Origin: Bradyrhizobium arachidis
GTDB taxonomy: Bacteria > Pseudomonadota > Alphaproteobacteria > Rhizobiales > Xanthobacteraceae
Length of the DNA: 64,000 nt
Assembly: GCF_015291705.1 (NCBI RefSeq)
Contig: NZ_CP030050.1
Location: forward strand, 8,804,001-8,868,000
Direction of reading: 5' to 3'
Each line of letters starts with the position of its first letter. Position 1 is the first letter of the stretch. The notes under the pieces were generated by a model that saw nothing but the letters and a program-made list of their open reading frames with translations, was not told where the DNA came from and did no database searches. Below are positions 3,453 through 12,173 of the stretch, piece after piece. Both the position numbers and the translations under genes were made by a program.

Positions 3453-3911
3453 CTAGCCTGCCTCGGCCTTCGCGCTCACCACGTCGGCAAACGACTTGAA
3501 GAACTCCCCGGCGAGCTTCGTCGCGGTCGAGTTGATCAGCCGCGCCCCTAGCTGGGCGAGCTTGCCGCCGATCTGCGCGTCGACCTCGTAGTGCAGCACC
3601 GTGACCTCGGCGCTCTCGGATTCCAGCCGCACCACCGCGCCGCCCTTGGCAAAACCGGCGACGCCGCCGGAGCCCTCGCCCGAGATGCGATAGGCGTTGG
3701 GCGGATCGAGATCGGACAGCGTCACCTTGCCGCTGAAGGTCGCTTTCACCGGACCGACCTTGAACACCACCGTCGCCGTCATCTCGTTCGGCGCGGTCAC
3801 GTCGAGCGACTGGCAGCCGGGAATGCACTGCTTCAGCACAGCGGGATCGTTCAGCGCCACCCACACCTGTTCACGCGAGGCAGGAATACGCTGGCTGTCG
3901 TTCATCTGCAT
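3453..3911 (-). CDS. coxG: CO dehydrogenase accessory protein CoxG (SRPBCC fold)
   Basis: The 152-aa product is the last gene of the cox cluster. It has the CoxG/SRPBCC signature: MNDSQRIPASREQVWVAL at the start, PGCQSL, and the repeated VGPVKATFSGKVTL strand. In Oligotropha CoxG recruits CO dehydrogenase to the cytoplasmic membrane, and related proteins contact quinones. This copy ends right after the core fold (FADVVSAKAEAG) and shows no hydrophobic C-terminal tail, so it is shorter than the roughly 200-aa anchored type I remember. It starts 6 bp downstream of coxF, which indicates co-transcription. Repeat B1 follows its stop closely. Confidence 0.9.
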   Translation of the reverse strand: MQMNDSQRIPASREQVWVALNDPAVLKQCIPGCQSLDVTAPNEMTATVVFKVGPVKATFSGKVTLSDLDPPNAYRISGEGSGGVAGFAKGGAVVRLESESAEVTVLHYEVDAQIGGKLAQLGARLINSTATKLAGEFFKSFADVVSAKAEAG

Positions 3912-3917
3912 GATCGG

Positions 3918-4754
3918 TCACTCTCTGCTTGCTGCTTGACTGGCGCGCTGGCCGCGCCGCCGTTCCCTGGTGATCTCGGCGAGGATCGACATCGCGATCT
4001 CCTCCGGCGTGATGGCGCCGAGATCGAGCCCGGCAGGCGCCTTGAAGTCATCGATCGCAGCGGCGCTGGCGCCTTCGGCAAGGAGTTTTGCGCGCAGCGA
4101 AGCCATCTTGCGACGGCTACCGACGAAGGCGTGATAGTCGGCTTTGGTCGCGACCGCCGCGCGGAGCGCCGCTTCATCACCCTTGCCCTGCGTCGAGACC
4201 ACGACGAAGCGTTTGGCATCGTTGAGCTCGCCGAGCTGGTAGCCGTCGATGATCGCATCGGCATCCGGCGGCGCCGCGAGCTCCGCAGCAGGCGCCGCGA
4301 GCGTGACGTGATAGCCAAGCACGCGCGCCTGCGCCGCAAGAGACAGCGCTACGGGGCTTGCACCGAGAATGACCAGCGAGGGATGCGGCAGCACCGGCTC
4401 CACGAAGATGTCCATGGTGCCCTTGCTCGGGCACATATTGCTGGCAAAGCGGATGCCGTCGCGGCTCTCGCCGGCGCTGACGCCGAGCTCGGCCAGCAGG
4501 TTTTCGGGCTGCACCGAGACCATGCGAGGCACGCCGTCGGCGAGCGCCTCGCGGGCCGCCTTCAGCACCGCGCCCCTGGCACAGCCGCCGCCGATCCAAC
4601 CCGCGACGATGGTGCCGTCGGCCGCAATGATCGCCTTGGCGCCAGCCTTCGCCGCGGTCACCGACACCGTCCGCACCACCGTCGCGAGCACGAAGGCACG
4701 CTCCGCGGCCTTCATCTGCGCGACGAGATCCAGCACTTCGATAGGGGCGGTCAT
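3918..4754 (-). CDS. coxF: CO dehydrogenase maturation factor CoxF (XdhC/CoxI family)
   Basis: The 278-aa product belongs to the XdhC/CoxI family, which helps deliver sulfurated molybdenum cofactor to molybdenum hydroxylases. The N-terminal domain has AIIAADGTIVAGWIGGGC with its conserved Cys. A Cys-containing NMCPSKGTMDIFVEPV segment follows. From about residue 135 there is a Rossmann-like XdhC_C domain (LVILGASPVALSLAAQAR). In Oligotropha, CoxF acts with CoxD and CoxE in finishing the Mo/Cu active site. The gene lies between coxE (11 bp gap) and coxG (6 bp gap), the order expected for coxF. It is often annotated simply as xanthine dehydrogenase accessory protein. Confidence 0.88.
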   Translation of the reverse strand: MTAPIEVLDLVAQMKAAERAFVLATVVRTVSVTAAKAGAKAIIAADGTIVAGWIGGGCARGAVLKAAREALADGVPRMVSVQPENLLAELGVSAGESRDGIRFASNMCPSKGTMDIFVEPVLPHPSLVILGASPVALSLAAQARVLGYHVTLAAPAAELAAPPDADAIIDGYQLGELNDAKRFVVVSTQGKGDEAALRAAVATKADYHAFVGSRRKMASLRAKLLAEGASAAAIDDFKAPAGLDLGAITPEEIAMSILAEITRERRRGQRASQAASRE

Positions 4755-4765
4755 CGCAACATCCC

Positions 4766-5974
4766 TCAGAGTTTTGCCAGATAAGGCTCGAGCGCACGCA
4801 GGCTGTTCAGCGAATTGGCGGGGGCATAGAGATCGACATGCGGCAGGGCCGCCTTGATGCCGCGCGCCTCGGGCGCATAGCCCTCCCAGGCCATCATCGG
4901 GTTGAGCCAGACGATGCGGCGGCAGCGCCGGTGCAACGCCGCCATTTCTCGTCCGAGCAAGGCTGCGTCACCGGTCTCGTAGCCGTCGGAGACGATCATC
5001 ACGCAGCTGCGCGAATGGATCACGCGGGCAGCGTGCCAGCGGTTGAAGGTCTGCAGGGACTCGCCGATCCTGGTGCCGCCGCCGGCGCCCTGCGCCATGA
5101 TCGAGAGCCGGTCGAGCGCGCGGCCGGCGTCCTTCTCCTTCATCGCGTCGGAGACATGAGCGAGCCGCGTGTGGAACAGGAACGCCTCGGCCTCGCGGAA
5201 CTGGTCGAGCACACCGTGGATGAAGCGCAGGAACACTGACGTGTACATGCTCATCGAGCCCGAGGCATCGAGCAGCACGACCAGCCGCAGCGGCTTGTCC
5301 TTGCGCCGACGCTTGACGAGGCTGATCGGCACCCCGCCGTGGCTGATGTTGCGATGGATGGTGCGCCGGAGGTCGAGCCGGTAACCGCGTCGTCGCGCCA
5401 GATCGCGCCGGGTCAGGCGCGTTCGCATCGCTTTGGCGAGCTGCGCTGCGGCCTCATGCGCTTGCGCGACTTGATCGGGATCGCTGAGCTTCCTGAAATC
5501 GACCTCGGCAAGATTGTCCGCGCGCGAGGCACCTTCCATGCGGCCCTCGCCGAAGCGGCCTTCCGGCGCATCGTCGGAGGAGGGAAGCTGATCGGTGACG
5601 GATTGGCTGCCGCCCTGCTCCGCCGACCTGTCCTGCAGGCTCTTCAACGAGGGATTACTGATGCCCGGCGTCGAACCAATCGTCCGGGAGCGCGAGCGCA
5701 CGCGCTTGCCCAGCCAGAACGCATCGAACAGCCCGTCGAACTTGTCCCAATCGCATTTGCGCGCCGAGAACAGGTGCTTGAACGCCGCGCGCAGAAGGTT
5801 CGGCCGGGCGGCATAACCCGCCGCCATCAGCGTCGCCGCATCCTGCCCTTCGGCGAGCCCGATGCGAAAGCCGGCGTCGCGCAGCGTGCGCAGGAAGGCG
5901 GCAAGCCTCGCGGACACGAAGCGCGAGACCTCGTCGAGGTCGTCATAGCCGGGACTGGAGCCGCAGCAGCTCAT
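4766..5974 (-). CDS. coxE: CO dehydrogenase maturation protein CoxE (VWA domain)
   Basis: The 402-aa product is a cytosolic von Willebrand A-type protein. The C-terminal half contains the MIDAS loop VVLLDASGSMSMYTS and the later VSDGYETGD. The N-terminal half is helical and begins with a Cys-containing MSCCGSSPGYDD. In Oligotropha the AAA+ protein CoxD and CoxE act together to build the [CuSMoO2] site. The ATG at 5974 overlaps the coxD stop in an ATGA arrangement, which decides the start over longer open-frame readings and implies translational coupling. It lacks a signal peptide. Confidence 0.92.
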   Translation of the reverse strand: MSCCGSSPGYDDLDEVSRFVSARLAAFLRTLRDAGFRIGLAEGQDAATLMAAGYAARPNLLRAAFKHLFSARKCDWDKFDGLFDAFWLGKRVRSRSRTIGSTPGISNPSLKSLQDRSAEQGGSQSVTDQLPSSDDAPEGRFGEGRMEGASRADNLAEVDFRKLSDPDQVAQAHEAAAQLAKAMRTRLTRRDLARRRGYRLDLRRTIHRNISHGGVPISLVKRRRKDKPLRLVVLLDASGSMSMYTSVFLRFIHGVLDQFREAEAFLFHTRLAHVSDAMKEKDAGRALDRLSIMAQGAGGGTRIGESLQTFNRWHAARVIHSRSCVMIVSDGYETGDAALLGREMAALHRRCRRIVWLNPMMAWEGYAPEARGIKAALPHVDLYAPANSLNSLRALEPYLAKL

Positions 5975-6837
5975 GCAACCTTCCCCAGCAGGCGTTGCGT
6001 GACCTCGCCCGTGACACGGGCACGGTCCTCCTGGGTCTTGAGCAAGCAGACCATCGTTTCGTGCACGGTCTCCGGCGCGTCGTGGAGGTCGCGGACGTCG
6101 AGCCCGACGAGGGCTGCGGCCCAGTCCAGCGTCTCCGCGACGCCCGGGACTTTGCGCAGCTCCTCCTTGCGCACGCCCTCGACCATGCGTGCGATCTGGA
6201 GCGAGAGCGATGGGCTCGCACCCGCGACGCGCGCCAGGATGATCCGGGTCTCGCGATCGACGTCGGGATAGTCGACGTAGTGGTAGAGACAGCGCCGGCG
6301 CAGCGCGTCCGACAGTTCGCGCGTGCCGTTCGAGGTCAGCACGACATGCGGGATCGTGATGGCGGGGATGGTGCCGAGCTCGGGGATCGAGACCTGAAAG
6401 TCGGACAGAAGCTCGAGCAGGAAAGCCTCGAACTCGTCGTCGGCACGGTCGATCTCGTCGATCAGCAGCACCGGCGCCTGGGCGCGGCGGATCGCGGCGA
6501 GCAGCGGGCGCTCCAGCAGGTATTTTTCCGAGAACACCTGGTCCTCGATGCTGTCGCTGCCGCGATGGGCCTGGATCGCCAGCAGCTGGCGCTGGTAGTT
6601 CCACTCGTAAAGTGCGGCGGACTGGTCGAGCCCTTCGTAGCATTGCAGGCGGATCAGCTCGGTCGCGTGCACCTTTGCCAGCGCCTTCGCCACCTCGGTC
6701 TTGCCGACGCCCGCCTCGCCTTCGAGCAGCAGCGGACGCCGCAGCAATTGCATCAGCGAGATCGCAGTCGCGAGGTCCGCATCGGCGATGTAGCCCGATG
6801 CAGCCAAGGCTTGTGCGATCTCGTCACGGCCTTTCAT
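5971..6837 (-). CDS. coxD: CO dehydrogenase maturation AAA+ ATPase CoxD (MoxR type)
   Basis: The 288-aa product is a MoxR-family AAA+ ATPase. It shows Walker A GEAGVGKT (residues 40-47), Walker B LLIDEIDRAD, the sensor-1 segment VLTSNGTREL and the arginine-rich ALRRRC box. CoxD is needed for insertion of sulfur and copper into the molybdenum site of CO dehydrogenase in Oligotropha; that role is taken from the family and the gene order. The gene starts 2 bp after coxL and overlaps coxE by 4 bp. Its partner is the VWA protein CoxE, the usual MoxR-VWA pairing. Confidence 0.94.
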   Translation of the reverse strand: MKGRDEIAQALAASGYIADADLATAISLMQLLRRPLLLEGEAGVGKTEVAKALAKVHATELIRLQCYEGLDQSAALYEWNYQRQLLAIQAHRGSDSIEDQVFSEKYLLERPLLAAIRRAQAPVLLIDEIDRADDEFEAFLLELLSDFQVSIPELGTIPAITIPHVVLTSNGTRELSDALRRRCLYHYVDYPDVDRETRIILARVAGASPSLSLQIARMVEGVRKEELRKVPGVAETLDWAAALVGLDVRDLHDAPETVHETMVCLLKTQEDRARVTGEVTQRLLGKVA

Positions 6838-6839
6838 CG

Positions 6840-9260
6840 TTACGCCACCGCGCCCAGATCCTTCGCCGCCTTCCAGTTGCGCCAGAAATCGTGCGGCATC
6901 TGGATGTGCGTCGAGCCCAGGAACGAGAACGCATCATTCACGGCGTTGGAGAAGGCCGGCACGCCGCCGACATTCGGGCTTTCGCCGACGCCCTTGGCGC
7001 CGATCGGGTGATGCGGCGACGGGGTGACGGTGAAATCGGTTTCCCAATGCGGGGTCTCCACCGCGGTCGGCATGAAGAAGTCCATGAACGAGCCGGTGAC
7101 GACGTTGCCGGCCTCGTCGTAGCGGATCTCCTGGCCCATTGCGATGGCGAAGGCTTCGGTGAGGCCGCCATGCACCTGTCCCTCGATGATCATCGGGTTG
7201 ATGCGGGTGCCGCAATCGTCGAGCGCGTAGAAGCGCCGGATCTTGTACACGCCGGTGTCGACGTCGATGTCCATCACGCAGAGATACGCGCCGAATGGAT
7301 AGGTCATGTTGGGCGGATCGTAATAGCTGACCGCTTCCAGCCCCGGCTCCATGCCCGGCGGCACCGAGTTGTACGCTGCCCAGCAGATATCCTTCATCGA
7401 CATGAATTTTTCCGGCAGACCCTTCACCCGGAAACCGTCGATGTCGAATTCGAGATCGTCCTCATGGACCTCGAGCTTGTAGGCCGCGATCATCTGCGCC
7501 TTGGCCTTGATTTTTCGCGCAGCCATCGCGATCGCGGCGCCCGCCACCGGCGTCGAGCGCGAGCCATAGGTGCCGAGCCCGTAGGGCGCGGTGTCGGTGT
7601 TGCCCTCCTCCACCATGATGTTGTCGGCGGGAATGCCGATCTCGGTCGCGATGATCTGGGCCCAGGTGGTCTCGTGACCCTGGCCCTGGCTCTTGGTGCC
7701 CATGCGCGCGATGCCCGCACCGGTCGGGTGCAAGCGGATCTCGCAGGAGTCGAACATCGCGATGCCGAGGATGTCGCAGTTTTTCGACGGCCCGGCGCCG
7801 ACGATCTCGGTGAAGAAGGAGACCCCCAGGCCCATGATCTCGCGGGTCTCGCCGCGCGCGAACGCCGCGCGCTTCTCCGCCTGCTCCTTCCGGAGCGCGG
7901 CGTAGCCGGTCGTCTCCATCATCTTGCGCATGGCGGTGTGGTAGTCGCCGGAATCGTATTCCCAGCCCAGCGCCGAGTGATACGGGAACTGCTCCGTCTT
8001 GATGAAGTTCTTCAGCCGCAGCTCCGCCGGGTCCATGTTGAGCTTCTGCGCCAGGATATCCATGGCGCGCTCGATGCAATAGGCGGCCTCCGTGACGCGG
8101 AACGAGCAACGGTAGGCGACGCCGCCGGGCGCCTTGTTGGTATAGACGCCGTCCACCGCCAGATGCGCGGTCGGGAAGTCATAGGAGCCGGTGACGATGT
8201 TGAAGAAGCCGGCCGGCCATTTCGACGGGTCGGCGCAGGCATCGAACGCGCCGTGATCGGCGAGCACGTGGACACGAAGCCCCGTGACTTTGCCCTCCTT
8301 CGTCGCGGCGATCTCGGTGGTCATGTGATAATCGCGCGCGAACGAGGTCGCAGTGAGGTTCTCGATGCGGTCCTCGACCCATTTCACCGGCTTGCCTGTC
8401 ACGATGGAGGCCACGGCCGCGCAAATATAGCCGGGATAGGCGCCGACCTTGTTGCCGAAGCCGCCGCCGATATCGGGCGCGATGACGTGAATCTTCTGCT
8501 CCGGCAGCTTCGCGATCAGCGCCACCACGGTGCGGATCACATGCGGCGCCTGGAAGGTGCCGTAGATCGTCAGCTCGCCCTTGATCTTGTCGAAGGAGCA
8601 GACGCACTGGCAGGTCTCCAGCGGCGACGGATGGGTGCGGTGGTAGGAGATCATCTCCTTGATCTTGACCTCGGCCTTGTTGAAGGCCGCGTCGGTCAGC
8701 TCCTTGTCGCCAACCGTCCACTCGAAGATGTGGTTGTGATGCTTGCGCGGGCCGTGCGCGCCCGAGGTCTTGCCGGCGAGGTCCTCGCGCAGCACCGGCG
8801 CATCCTGATCCATCGACTTGAAGGGATCGACCAGCGGCGGCAACGGCTCGTATTCGACCACGACCTTGTTGATGCCGTCATCGGCCGCGTAGCGGTCGGT
8901 GGCGACGACGAAAGCGACCTCCTGGTTCTGGAACAGCACCTTGCCGTCGGCGAGCACCATCTGAACGTCGCCGGCAAGCGTCGGCATCCAGGCGAGGTTG
9001 ACGGTCTTCAGCGTCTCGGCGGTGATCACCGCGAGCACGCCCGGCACCTTCAGCGCCTCGCTGTCGTCGATCTTCTTGACGCGCGCGTGCGGATGCGGCG
9101 AGCGGACGAAGTCGCCATGCAGCATGCCCGGCAGCTTGACGTCGTCGACGTAATTGCCCTTGCCTTGCGTGAAGCGGATGTCCTCGACACGCTTGCGCTT
9201 GCAGCCCATGCCTTCGAGTGCGGCTTCGCGTTGTTCCCGCGTGGGAGTCATGTCGTTCAT
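6840..9260 (-). CDS. coxL: Aerobic CO dehydrogenase large subunit, form I (Mo/Cu catalytic subunit)
   Basis: The 806-aa product is the catalytic subunit that oxidises CO to CO2 at a Mo-Cu centre with molybdopterin cytosine dinucleotide. The diagnostic loop AYRCSFR is encoded at 8097-8117, with the copper-binding Cys at residue 385 (Cys388 in Oligotropha). This is the form I signature; form II enzymes have AYRGAGR. Other motifs are the Mo-cofactor segment [12 protein letters not shown] and GAKGVGESP, whose Glu (about 760) is the catalytic base. The ATG at 9260 overlaps coxS by 4 bp and gives the normal length. A longer reading upstream runs through coxS and is rejected. Confidence 0.97.
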
Positions 9261-9757
9261 TCTGCGGCCTCCCGGAATTCCACGCCGTTGATCTTGGCGC
9301 TGGCGTATTGAATGGCTTTGACGATGTTCTGGTAGCCGGTGCAGCGGCAGATATTGCCGGAGATGCCCATCCGGATTTCCTGCTCGCTCGGCGAGGCGTT
9401 TTCCTTCAGCAGCCGATGCGCGCGCATGATCATGCCGGGCGTGCAGAAGCCGCATTGCAGGCCGTGCATCATGCGGAAACCTTCCTGAAGCGCCGACAGC
9501 GTGCCGTCGGCATTGGCCATGCCTTCGATCGTGGTGATGTCGCTTCCTTGCGCCTGCACCGCGAACATCGTGCAGGATTTGACGGACATGCCGTCGATAT
9601 CGACGGTGCAGGCGCCGCAATGCGTGGTCTCGCAGCCGATATGGGTGCCGGTCATCCCGAGATTCTCGCGGATGAAGTGCACCAGCAGCGTGCGCGGCTC
9701 GACGAGGCCTTCGACTTCGGCGCCGTTCACCTTCATGGTCACATGTGTTTTGGCCAT
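9257..9757 (-). CDS. coxS: CO dehydrogenase small subunit, [2Fe-2S] protein
   Basis: The 166-aa product carries both 2Fe-2S sites of the small subunit. The N-terminal ferredoxin-type cluster uses Cys42, 47, 50 and 62 ([16 protein letters not shown]). The C-terminal helical cluster uses Cys102, 105, 137 and 139 (QCGFCTPGM and GNICRCTGY). It passes electrons from the Mo site in CoxL to the FAD in CoxM. Spacing is 4-bp overlap with coxL and 12 bp from coxM, so the three structural genes are one transcript in the order M-S-L. Confidence 0.97.
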
Positions 9758-9769
9758 CGGTCCCCTCCC

Positions 9770-10633
9770 TTATTTCGCTCGGCTTGCTGCGCGCTGCAGC
9801 GCCCGCGTCACCATGATGCCGCCGACATGCTTTCTGTATTCGATCGGCCCGCGCGCATCCGCGGCCGGCGCCATGATCGCTTCGGCTGCCGTAGCGGCTT
9901 TCTTCAAGGTCGCGGCATCGAGGCTGGTGCCGATCACCGCCTTGGCGGCATCGACAGCCAGCAACGGCGTCTCGTGAACATTGGTGAGGCCGATCGAACA
10001 GGTCGCGACCTTGCCGCCGGACACGGTGAGGACGACGGCGGCCGCCGCGGTGGCGTAGTCGCCGACCTTGCGCTTGAGCTTTTCGTAGGCGTAGCCGTGG
10101 CCGGCCGGAGGCACGGGCACCGAGACGGAAGTGAGGATCTCGCCGGGCTCCAGCGCGGTGAAATAGGCGCCCTGGTAGAAATCGGCCGCCGCCACGTCGC
10201 GGGCGCCGCCGGCGCCTTCGAGGCGGTAGGTCGCGCCCAGCGTCATCATCAGGGCCGGCATGTCGTTGCCGGGATCGCCGTTGGCGACATTGCCGCCGAT
10301 CGTGCCGCGGTAGCGCACCTGCGGGTCGGCGATCAAAAGCGCAGCCTCATGCAGGATCGGCATCGCCTTGGCGACCTCGTCGGAGGCCAGCAGCTCATGC
10401 TGGGTGGTCATCGCGCCGATGACGAGATTGTTGCCGTCGTGGCGGATGCCCTTGAGGGCGGCGATGCCGTGCAGATCGATCAGATGGGCGGGGGTGGCAA
10501 GCCGAAGCTTCATCATCGGCACCAGGCTGTGCCCGCCGGCCAGCGGCCGCGCGTCCTCGCCGAGATCGGATAGAAGTTTGACGGCGTCGGCGACACTCGC
10601 CGGCCGGTAATAGCTGAATGAGCCCGGGATCAT
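9770..10633 (-). CDS. coxM: CO dehydrogenase medium subunit, FAD-binding
   Basis: The 287-aa product is the flavoprotein subunit that hands electrons from CO dehydrogenase to the respiratory quinone pool. FAD-binding motifs are AGGHS (residues 32-36) and TIGGN (111-115), as in the Oligotropha subunit. The ATG at 10633 is preceded by a strong GGAGGAG ribosome-binding site and starts the canonical MIPGSFSYYRP; the frame stays open upstream but has no homology there. Upstream in the leader lie a phased direct repeat at 10741-10773 and repeat C1. Confidence 0.96.
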   Translation of the reverse strand: MIPGSFSYYRPASVADAVKLLSDLGEDARPLAGGHSLVPMMKLRLATPAHLIDLHGIAALKGIRHDGNNLVIGAMTTQHELLASDEVAKAMPILHEAALLIADPQVRYRGTIGGNVANGDPGNDMPALMMTLGATYRLEGAGGARDVAAADFYQGAYFTALEPGEILTSVSVPVPPAGHGYAYEKLKRKVGDYATAAAAVVLTVSGGKVATCSIGLTNVHETPLLAVDAAKAVIGTSLDAATLKKAATAAEAIMAPAADARGPIEYRKHVGGIMVTRALQRAASRAK

Positions 10634-10721
10634 CGTCTCCTCCCATGATCGTCTCTGCGCGTGACGGCGCGGACGTTGGGACGGACGGTCACTCCCGGCG
10701 GGGCGAGCCGCAACATGAGCG

Positions 10722-10773
10722 GCACAAAGGCGGGCTTTTTGCACGAATTGCGGGTGGAAGAGCACGAATTGCG
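10722..10773 (-). promoter_or_regulatory. Candidate LytTR-type operator of the cox genes (21-bp phased direct repeats)
   Basis: GCACGAATTGCG occurs twice, at 10741-10752 and 10762-10773, exactly 21 bp apart. On the coxM coding strand each reads CGCAATTCGTGC, which contains TTnnnG. A weaker copy, GCACAAA, starts at 10722 (19 bp away). LytTR proteins bind direct repeats about 21 bp centre to centre, and the CO sensor RcoM binds triplets with this spacing. The site lies 108-140 bp upstream of the coxM start, and coxC upstream encodes a LytTR protein. Binding itself is inferred. Confidence 0.6.
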
Positions 10774-10794
10774 TCAGGGGGAGAGACCCTTCAC

Positions 10795-10930
10795 CTCTCC
10801 CCGCCTGCGGGGAGAGGTCGGATTGCATCGCAAGATGCAATCCGGGTGAGGGGGTACAGGTCTATCGAAGATCTCATCTGTGGAGAGAGGCCCCTCACCC
10901 CAACCCTCTCCCCGTAAGAACGGGGAGAGG
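10795..10930. repeat. Intergenic inverted repeat, family C copy 1
   Basis: Two hairpin modules, CCTCTCCCCGCCTGCGGGGAGAGG at the left and CCCTCTCCCCGTAAGAACGGGGAGAGGG at the right, flank an inner palindrome TTGCATCGCAAGATGCAA. Related copies lie at 17801-17927, 22715-22771 and 60633-60762. This one sits between coxC and coxM, just upstream of the putative operator, and might attenuate read-through from coxC. Confidence 0.85.
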
Positions 10931-10982
10931 GCGAAGTAAGAGCAAGCGGGGCGAGGGAGCGAGAGAGCTCGCCTCCTGACTT

Positions 10983-12173
10983 CTACGCCTGCCGCCGGTT
11001 CGCCAGCCCCAGCCGGGCCTTCACCTCGGCGATCTTGGCCCGGCTGACCGGCACCCGGTGCGGCGAGGGGCCATCGAGCTCGAGCACGGCACCGTCACCC
11101 TCTTTGCGGACCAGCGCGACATGGGGGATTGCGACGATATGGCTGCGGTGCACCCGCAGGAACAGCGAGGGATCGAGCTGGGCTTCCGCTTCCGAGATCG
11201 ACCAGGGGCACATCCGCTCGCGGGTGCCGTCATGGACGCGGGTGTAGTGCGCATCCGCGCGGACGCTGCGGATATTGGCGGTGTCGATGAAATGGGTGCC
11301 GTCGGCGCCCTCGACTGGCAGTCGCGGCGCCGGCGCGCGGGGCGGCTGGCCGAGGCCGCCGAGTGGCCCCATTGGCCGCAGCGCCACCGCCGAAATAACC
11401 GGCTCGGCGGGAGCGACCGGCGGCGAAACCGAATCTGCCACCGGAGAGGCTGCCGTCTGCCGCCGATCCGGCACCAGCGAGAGCAGGAAGCCGGCAGCGA
11501 TCACGAAGCACAGCACGGCCACGACGATCGACAATATCTGCTGCGACGCGGCAAGGCCGCCGCCGAGATGGTGATGGGCAGGACCGGTCAGCGGCTCGAA
11601 ATGCATGCCCAGCATCGCGGTGTAGTGCATGCCGGAGACGGCAATGCCGAATGCGATCGAGCTGACAATCAGCCGGACGCCCTCCTGCTGCGCCAGAAAG
11701 GCACGCAGACCGCCATAGGCGGTGACGATTGCGACCAGGATCGACAGCATCACCATCGCCGGGTTGTGCACGATGCCGAACGACCCGGCGAGCCCATGAA
11801 TGCCGACATAGTGCATGCTGGCGATACCGACGCCGAGCAGGACCGCGGATGAGGCCACCCGCTTCAAGCTGGGCTCACCGATCGAGACGAAGAACAAGGA
11901 GATGCCGACCACCAGCGCGCAGATCAGGAAGGAGATGATGGTGGGAAGGACCAGATAGACCGTGTCGGGCGGCAGCGGCGCGGCCAGCATGCCGACGAAA
12001 TGCATGGTCCAGATGCCGACGGCCAGGAACGCCGCCGCGCCCGCGAGCATCACGCGGTTGCTGACGCCGGGCGTGTTGCGGATGCGAGCCGCAAGCGCAA
12101 AGCCGGTATAGCCACCCAGGCTCGCGATCGCCACAGAGAGCGCGACGAGATAGGGATCGTGTCCTTCGAACAT
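10983..12173 (-). CDS. coxC: CoxC: MHYT membrane sensor with C-terminal LytTR DNA-binding domain
   Basis: The 396-aa product has an N-terminal integral membrane domain of about 255 residues with the three MHYT repeats MHFV (57), MHYV (120) and MHYT (182). MHYT domains are proposed to bind metal, perhaps copper, and sense gases such as CO, NO or O2. After a Pro/Ala-rich linker, residues 293-396 form a LytTR domain (SLFLRVHRSHIVAIPHV, then HRVPVSRAKIAEVKARLG). CoxC and CoxH of Oligotropha share this architecture. Position immediately upstream of coxM in the same direction supports the name. It is inferred to be a membrane-tethered one-component regulator of the cox genes. Confidence 0.88.
   Translation of the reverse strand: MFEGHDPYLVALSVAIASLGGYTGFALAARIRNTPGVSNRVMLAGAAAFLAVGIWTMHFVGMLAAPLPPDTVYLVLPTIISFLICALVVGISLFFVSIGEPSLKRVASSAVLLGVGIASMHYVGIHGLAGSFGIVHNPAMVMLSILVAIVTAYGGLRAFLAQQEGVRLIVSSIAFGIAVSGMHYTAMLGMHFEPLTGPAHHHLGGGLAASQQILSIVVAVLCFVIAAGFLLSLVPDRRQTAASPVADSVSPPVAPAEPVISAVALRPMGPLGGLGQPPRAPAPRLPVEGADGTHFIDTANIRSVRADAHYTRVHDGTRERMCPWSISEAEAQLDPSLFLRVHRSHIVAIPHVALVRKEGDGAVLELDGPSPHRVPVSRAKIAEVKARLGLANRRQA

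Follow-up and report, generated by a model that had tools for sequence, protein, structure and literature searches.

A phased triplet of direct repeats conserved upstream of coxM as a probable operator of the membrane-bound LytTR regulator CoxC

The 64,000-nucleotide stretch of Bradyrhizobium arachidis DNA analysed here (the window) carries a cox cluster on its minus strand. The product of coxC (10983..12173) is an MHYT membrane sensor with a LytTR DNA-binding domain, as judged from three Pfam MHYT stretches and a Pfam LytTR match, in line with the earlier note, which had called the adjacent CoxC a LytTR protein. After a gap of 349 bp comes coxM (9770..10633, start at 10633; Pfam FAD_binding_5 and CO_deh_flav_C), the first gene of the presumed target operon, and then, in this order, coxS, coxL, coxD, coxE, coxF and coxG, presumed to be the rest of it (3453..9757, minus strand; Pfam and NCBIfam matches). 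The window CoxL clears the TIGR02416 cut-off, and the genes from coxM to coxG probably form one transcript. A genome-wide search returned a single LytTR match in this genome, CoxC, which is thus encoded alongside its candidate site; as no second LytTR protein was found, neither was an RcoM.

The repeats lie inside the coxC-coxM gap, 89-135 bp before coxM. GCACGAATTGCG occurs on the plus strand at 10741-10752 and again at 10762-10773, a start-to-start distance of 21 bp, and a weaker third copy, beginning GCACAAA at 10722-10728, stands 19 bp away. Read on the minus strand, which is the coding strand of coxM, the three cores are TTCGTGC-TTCGTGC-TTTGTGC with steps of 21 and 19 bp, and the corresponding words TTCGTGCT, TTCGTGCA and TTTGTGCC each match TTNNNGCN. 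Repeat 1 (CGCAATTCGTGC, 10762..10773, core TTCGTGC at 10762-10768) is the farthest from coxM, repeat 2 has the same sequence (CGCAATTCGTGC, 10741..10752, core TTCGTGC at 10741-10747), and repeat 3 is the weaker TTTGTGC (10722..10728), all on the minus strand. The 12-bp direct repeat, its 21-bp spacing, the weaker copy 19 bp on and the TTnnnG half-sites on the coding strand are therefore present as the earlier note had described them. GCACGAATTGCG also resembles the -24/-12 pair of a sigma-54 promoter, but its halves are too close, judging by eye against the consensus, and this candidate was rejected.

Two other features of the gap were seen. The sequence TGACGCA just before repeat 1 (10769-10776 in the window, and in relatives) is nearly invariant, with 1.7-2.0 bits per base; this exceeds what a LytTR half-site needs and may reflect a longer half-site or a second factor. 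Between coxC and the repeats, at 10794-10931, there are palindromes of the form CCTCTCCCCGC-N2-GCGGGGAGAGG, which has three occurrences in the window, and CGGATTGCATC-N4-GATGCAATCCG; such palindrome inserts probably explain part of the differences in gap length among relatives.

Taken by itself the repeat pair is only mildly unusual in the window. Exact direct repeats 12 bp or longer, with distances of 12-59, number six in the 64 kb, and two of these have a distance of 21, namely the pair discussed here and another at 4270. Nor is the 12-mer rare in the 9.87 Mb single-contig genome, with 6 exact copies and 123 sites at one mismatch or fewer, against 41 for the reversed pattern. The triplet is rare: when both strands of the window were scanned, a threefold TTNNNGC array with 17-22 bp spacing was found once, and a 21/19 array reaching 14/18 or more against TTCGTG likewise once, with a score of 17/18.

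The repeats are conserved across orthologous coxC-coxM gaps, which is the check that the earlier note had proposed. We collected 110 CoxC loci, 30 from the genus and the best 80 of 240 from GTDB genomes; 106 had coxM downstream and gave 89 distinct gaps, that of the window included, while L022, L049, L067 and L093 were dropped for having no coxM in the stretch (explained in L022 by an insertion). A 21/19 triplet scoring at least 14/18 is present in 84 of these 89 gaps, the best 80 of 240 GTDB loci being included, versus 0.16% of 8,900 dinucleotide shuffles. When both steps were varied from 10 to 33 bp (L080 left out), the 21/19 combination had the highest mean score, 16.07 versus 11.05 (sd 0.82) overall, and the best antisense value was 10.9. 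Over the 84 gaps the cores of repeats 1, 2 and 3 hold 1.86, 1.75 and 1.32 bits per base, and the first spacer 0.25 bits. A strict TTNNNGC triplet had proved too narrow a conservation test (13/89 gaps; antisense 2/89) and was replaced by the scored TTCGTG core. The second exact repeat at 4270 could suggest that the pair in front of coxM arose by chance, but this is contradicted by the triplet in 84 of the 89 gaps, again with the best 80 of 240 included, and we regard it as extremely improbable.

Conservation extends to more distant relatives. An order-wide search with the CoxC of Afipia carboxidovorans OM5 as query matched 40 of 397 genomes, from which 30 loci were fetched; together with four plasmid loci these made 34, of which 33 had coxM downstream and, after removal of 5 window-type gaps, 28 distant gaps remained. 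Their CoxC proteins are 31-100% identical to that of OM5, OM5 itself being among them. In 27 of the 28 a GCATTTCGTGC-like pair stands at 19-22 bp, equalled by at most 2 of 200 mononucleotide shuffles; L149 is the failing gap (11/200), and among single spacings 20 bp performs best. Of five Rhodobacterales plasmid records with coxM, three were examined; all three carry CoxC, and they scored 17/18, 16/18 and 13/18 (0, 0 and 1 of 100 shuffles). Thermomicrobium roseum, where CoxC is not annotated next to coxM, gave no repeat signal (30/100 shuffles).

The repeats also follow CoxC. Within the genus, a pattern spanning repeats 1 and 2, with 3 mismatches allowed, matched 90 of 242 genomes, that is, 90 of the 91 with an own-type CoxC and 0 of the 151 others, 14 genomes with merely MHYT-type, 44%-type or fragment matches being tallied as not own-type; the one own-type genome that it missed, G226, carries a 20/20 variant, and a reversed control pattern matched 2 genomes. 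All 92 genus genomes with coxM have CoxC (90 own-type, 2 of the 44% type). This co-occurrence shows linkage only, since operator and coxC share one cluster, and as the genus offers no coxM without CoxC, a class-wide draw of 385 genomes, with 17 coxM loci outside the own genome, replaced the intra-genus control. Where CoxC is adjacent, all 13 class-wide loci carry the pair within 450 bp upstream of coxM (at most 1/200 shuffles), and 11 of the 13 pass the stricter triplet test on 300 bp upstream (at most 1/100), the failures being L161 (6/100) and L163 (86/100). No pair was found at three loci without an adjacent CoxC, L168, L172 and L174 (19, 14 and 127 of 200 shuffles), although L172 offers merely 299 bp upstream and is thus weak evidence. 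The remaining locus without an adjacent CoxC, L159, does have the pair (0/200), and a CoxC is encoded 11 kb away on the same contig.

A regulator from outside the LytTR family might instead read the repeats, given that binding of CoxC here is a prediction from sequence. Against this stand the LytTR-type half-sites and spacing, the single LytTR protein of the genome, the OM5 triplets described below and the way the repeats track CoxC class-wide, even with CoxC 11 kb away; we find such a reader improbable. CoxC itself looks like a near single-target regulator, because 89 of the 90 matched genus genomes hold one pattern site; the other holds two. The second match in that genome (G235, at L117) was rejected as an operator, since by eye it resembles a 21-bp tandem repeat in which the spacer is conserved too.

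Several records deserve a separate remark. Genome G182 has two cox sets, an own-type CoxC with coxM on contig C1, and on C2 a CoxC of 44% identity together with a coxM of 69% identity; the coordinates of the C2 set are those of the Bradyrhizobium betae plasmid locus L113. The record titled Frankia sp. RB7 (L051) has a CoxC 90% identical to that of the window and a gap identical to that of a Bradyrhizobium-group genome (G081), and the one titled Arenimonas sp. (L106) groups with Rhizobiaceae; probably these two record names are wrong or the assemblies are mixed.

Natural insertions separate the two neighbours of the site. In three genomes 1.4-3.5 kb separate coxC from the operator. The intervening stretch holds an IS481-like transposase in L119, a tannase-family gene in L118 and, in L121, an ORF that matches no Pfam family; the operator is still 136-195 bp from coxM. 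In these three cases it stays near coxM, not coxC. On plasmids of Sinorhizobium meliloti AK83 and T073 (L115, L126) an 18/18 triplet follows coxC and is itself followed by an ORF with an EAL domain, and no coxMSL was found in the 5-6 kb examined around coxC; CoxC may here have acquired a cyclic-di-GMP gene as a new target, or the arrangement may be a remnant.

Downstream of the repeats we predict a promoter, with a -35 box TTGCGG (10708..10713, minus strand) 15 bp on from where repeat 3 begins and, beyond a 17-bp spacer, a -10 box GACCGT (10685..10690, minus strand), whose A at +24 and T at +28 are conserved in window-type gaps; transcription of coxM would then begin near 10678 on the minus strand. 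B. japonicum promoters are given as TTG-N(16-18)-TATA in a start-site map of strain USDA 110 (PMC4842269). A consensus scan found no promoter. The distance between repeats and box was followed in 106 gaps, the 89 window-type ones (best 80 of 240 GTDB loci included) and 17 of the 28 distant ones, 11 having been left out because their third repeat is unclear by eye: counted from the beginning of repeat 3, the TTG starts at 15 bp in 75 gaps, at 26 bp in 29 and at 27 bp in 2. With the 89 window-type gaps alone (best 80 of 240 included), where no choice was made by eye, 60 have the TTG at 15 bp and the other 29 have it at 26 or 27 bp. Among these window-type gaps the -10 A at +24 from the TTG is found in 55/60 of the shorter and 27/29 of the longer form, and the T at +28 in 54/60 and 25/29. 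The TTG stands equally far from coxM in both forms (median 80), which differ from each other by 11-12 bp, about one helical turn. On a CoxC tree, a quick one with many weak forks and long branches, at least 8 changes between the forms are required, and branches supported at 95 or higher impose 3 of them. The operator is thus, by prediction, in fixed phase to a conserved -35 box, which the earlier note had not foreseen. The -10 box is not conserved in the distant 15-bp group (A 2/15, T 7/15), and the TTG at 15 bp holds in merely 5 of the 13 class-wide CoxC loci. Upstream of coxM in L159 (genome G888) the third repeat is weak and there is perhaps a fourth 20 bp on, which by eye would restore the 15 bp to the TTG.

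Lying between two genes of the same direction, the repeats could conceivably work at the RNA level, forming a leader or a terminator in the coxC-coxM gap. No covariation was found (term 0, 11 sequences), no terminator-like site was seen and all Rfam matches fall below the gathering score; moreover, the repeats are direct, not inverted, and stand upstream of the conserved promoter. We hold a role in RNA to be very improbable.

The type of operator is already known. OM5 CoxC is reported to bind and repress PcoxB, to read three TTNNNGCN repeats and to leave the DNA on CO with copper; the same paper, whose work concerned a single promoter in a single strain, presents it as the first MHYT protein for which gas sensing was shown and as prototypical of LytTR regulators bound to the membrane (PMC11347149). 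The main text of that paper names no site before coxM (PMC11347149). Neither the site described here nor its conservation, the rule on promoter distance or the PcoxB register proposed below turned up in searches of an open-access library. The window site shares with PcoxB the three TTNNNGCN repeats, the MHYT-LytTR CoxC and the cox cluster; however, PcoxB lies before coxB and the window site before coxM, and it is the coxM form that other species have kept. The published PcoxB repeats are 8-mers 18-21 bp apart, said to overlap the -35 box (PMC11347149), whereas in the window 15 bp lie between the start of repeat 3 and the predicted -35 box downstream of it, and the window spacers are 13 and 11 bp instead of 21 and 18.

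Compared with canonical LytTR operators of the AgrA/AlgR type (in part after PMC11347149), the window likewise has phased direct repeats about two helical turns apart, at 21 and 19 bp, but three half-sites in place of two. The RcoM operator of Paraburkholderia is also a LytTR triplet with 20-21 bp from start to start upstream of -35, given as TTCNNGCA with 12-13 bp spacers (PMC11347149). Repeat 2 of the window fits TTCNNGCA, repeats 1 and 3 do so only in part, and the spacers are 13 and 11 bp. The third repeat is 14 bp from the TTG in three RcoM-type promoters, close to the 15 bp of the window; these promoters lie on two plasmids, one of which encodes a regulator sharing 99% identity with a protein named RcoM 1. 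The reader differs, RcoM being a soluble haem-PAS protein and the candidate here the membrane-bound CoxC.

The PcoxB fragment reported to be bound by OM5 CoxC also holds TTCATGCG-TTGGTGGA-TTTGGGCA at positions 693, 714 and 734 of L112. Re-read in this way, after the sequences had been viewed (as was also the case for the RcoM comparison), PcoxB contains a triplet (L112:693-754) with 21/20 bp steps and a score of 14/18, with a TTG at 749, 15 bp after the third half-site, and a CCGC before the second half-site, in its conserved place. Such a triplet was met in 21 of 2000 shuffles of PcoxB, 3 of which included the TTG as well, and none of them the CCGC flank in addition; under a looser spacing test the figure was 7/200. 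On both strands of the 16 kb OM5 cox region only two triplets reach 14/18, this one and one in the 169-bp coxC-coxM gap (L112 3733, 20/20 bp, 15/18), both with a TTG at 15 bp; that OM5 would carry a triplet before coxB as well as before coxM had not been foreseen in the earlier note. The words changed in the published mutants lie at L112 705, 734 and 760, with steps of 29 and 26 bp that leave spacers of 21 and 18 bp, and the words in the published register score 10/18 against the conserved core. On our reading of the primers, the published repeat I mutation alters a base of the CCGC and the repeat II mutation alters the third half-site; the published binding data therefore also fit the re-read register. 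These comparisons suggest another register for the published operator, under which the spacing of the window would agree with that of PcoxB (21/20 from start to start).

On the strength of the triplet itself, its conservation, its ties to CoxC and coxM, the promoter phase and the design of the OM5 fragment, the three repeats are very probably the CoxC operator of the coxM promoter. The LytTR operator upstream of coxM postulated in the earlier note thus gains support from conservation, from the sole LytTR protein of the genome and from the OM5 fragment triplet. The LytTR domain of CoxC would dock immediately upstream of -35 on three half-sites spaced by two helical turns, repeat 3 from about -50, repeat 2 from -69 and repeat 1 from -90, and the membrane-bound CO sensor would so control the coxM promoter and with it the downstream genes. 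We infer both binding at the window site and the CO response, as well as the sign of control.

Granted a CoxC site, repression relieved by CO would be the likeliest mode, a view we favour by analogy, because OM5 CoxC represses PcoxB, which on re-reading has the same layout. CoxC could also bind and activate coxM through contact with RNA polymerase, like RcoM, in which case the repression of PcoxB seen in E. coli would not describe coxM. Activation is favoured by the position of the site upstream of -35, by the 11-12 bp jumps in its distance, close to a full helical turn, of which the tree needs at least 8 with 3 forced, and by the nearly identical layout, at 14 bp, of three RcoM-type promoters, RcoM1 being described as an activator (PMC11347149). 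Nevertheless, OM5 CoxC represses PcoxB, with the same 15-bp layout on re-reading, and leaves the DNA on CO (PMC11347149), a departure that would turn an activated coxM off. The re-reading of PcoxB thus shifts the odds from activation towards repression, and activation appears the less probable of the two, though a serious candidate. Tentatively, CoxC could be a phase-locked contact of RNA polymerase, as an activator or a polymerase holder, rather than a cover of the -35 box, with the published PcoxB register being off and the true operator a triplet phased at 20-21 bp.

In conclusion, a site kept at the CO dehydrogenase operon in many alphaproteobacteria would represent the general form of the CoxC operator. 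Its whole-turn distance rule to the promoter would make the choice between occlusion and polymerase contact testable.
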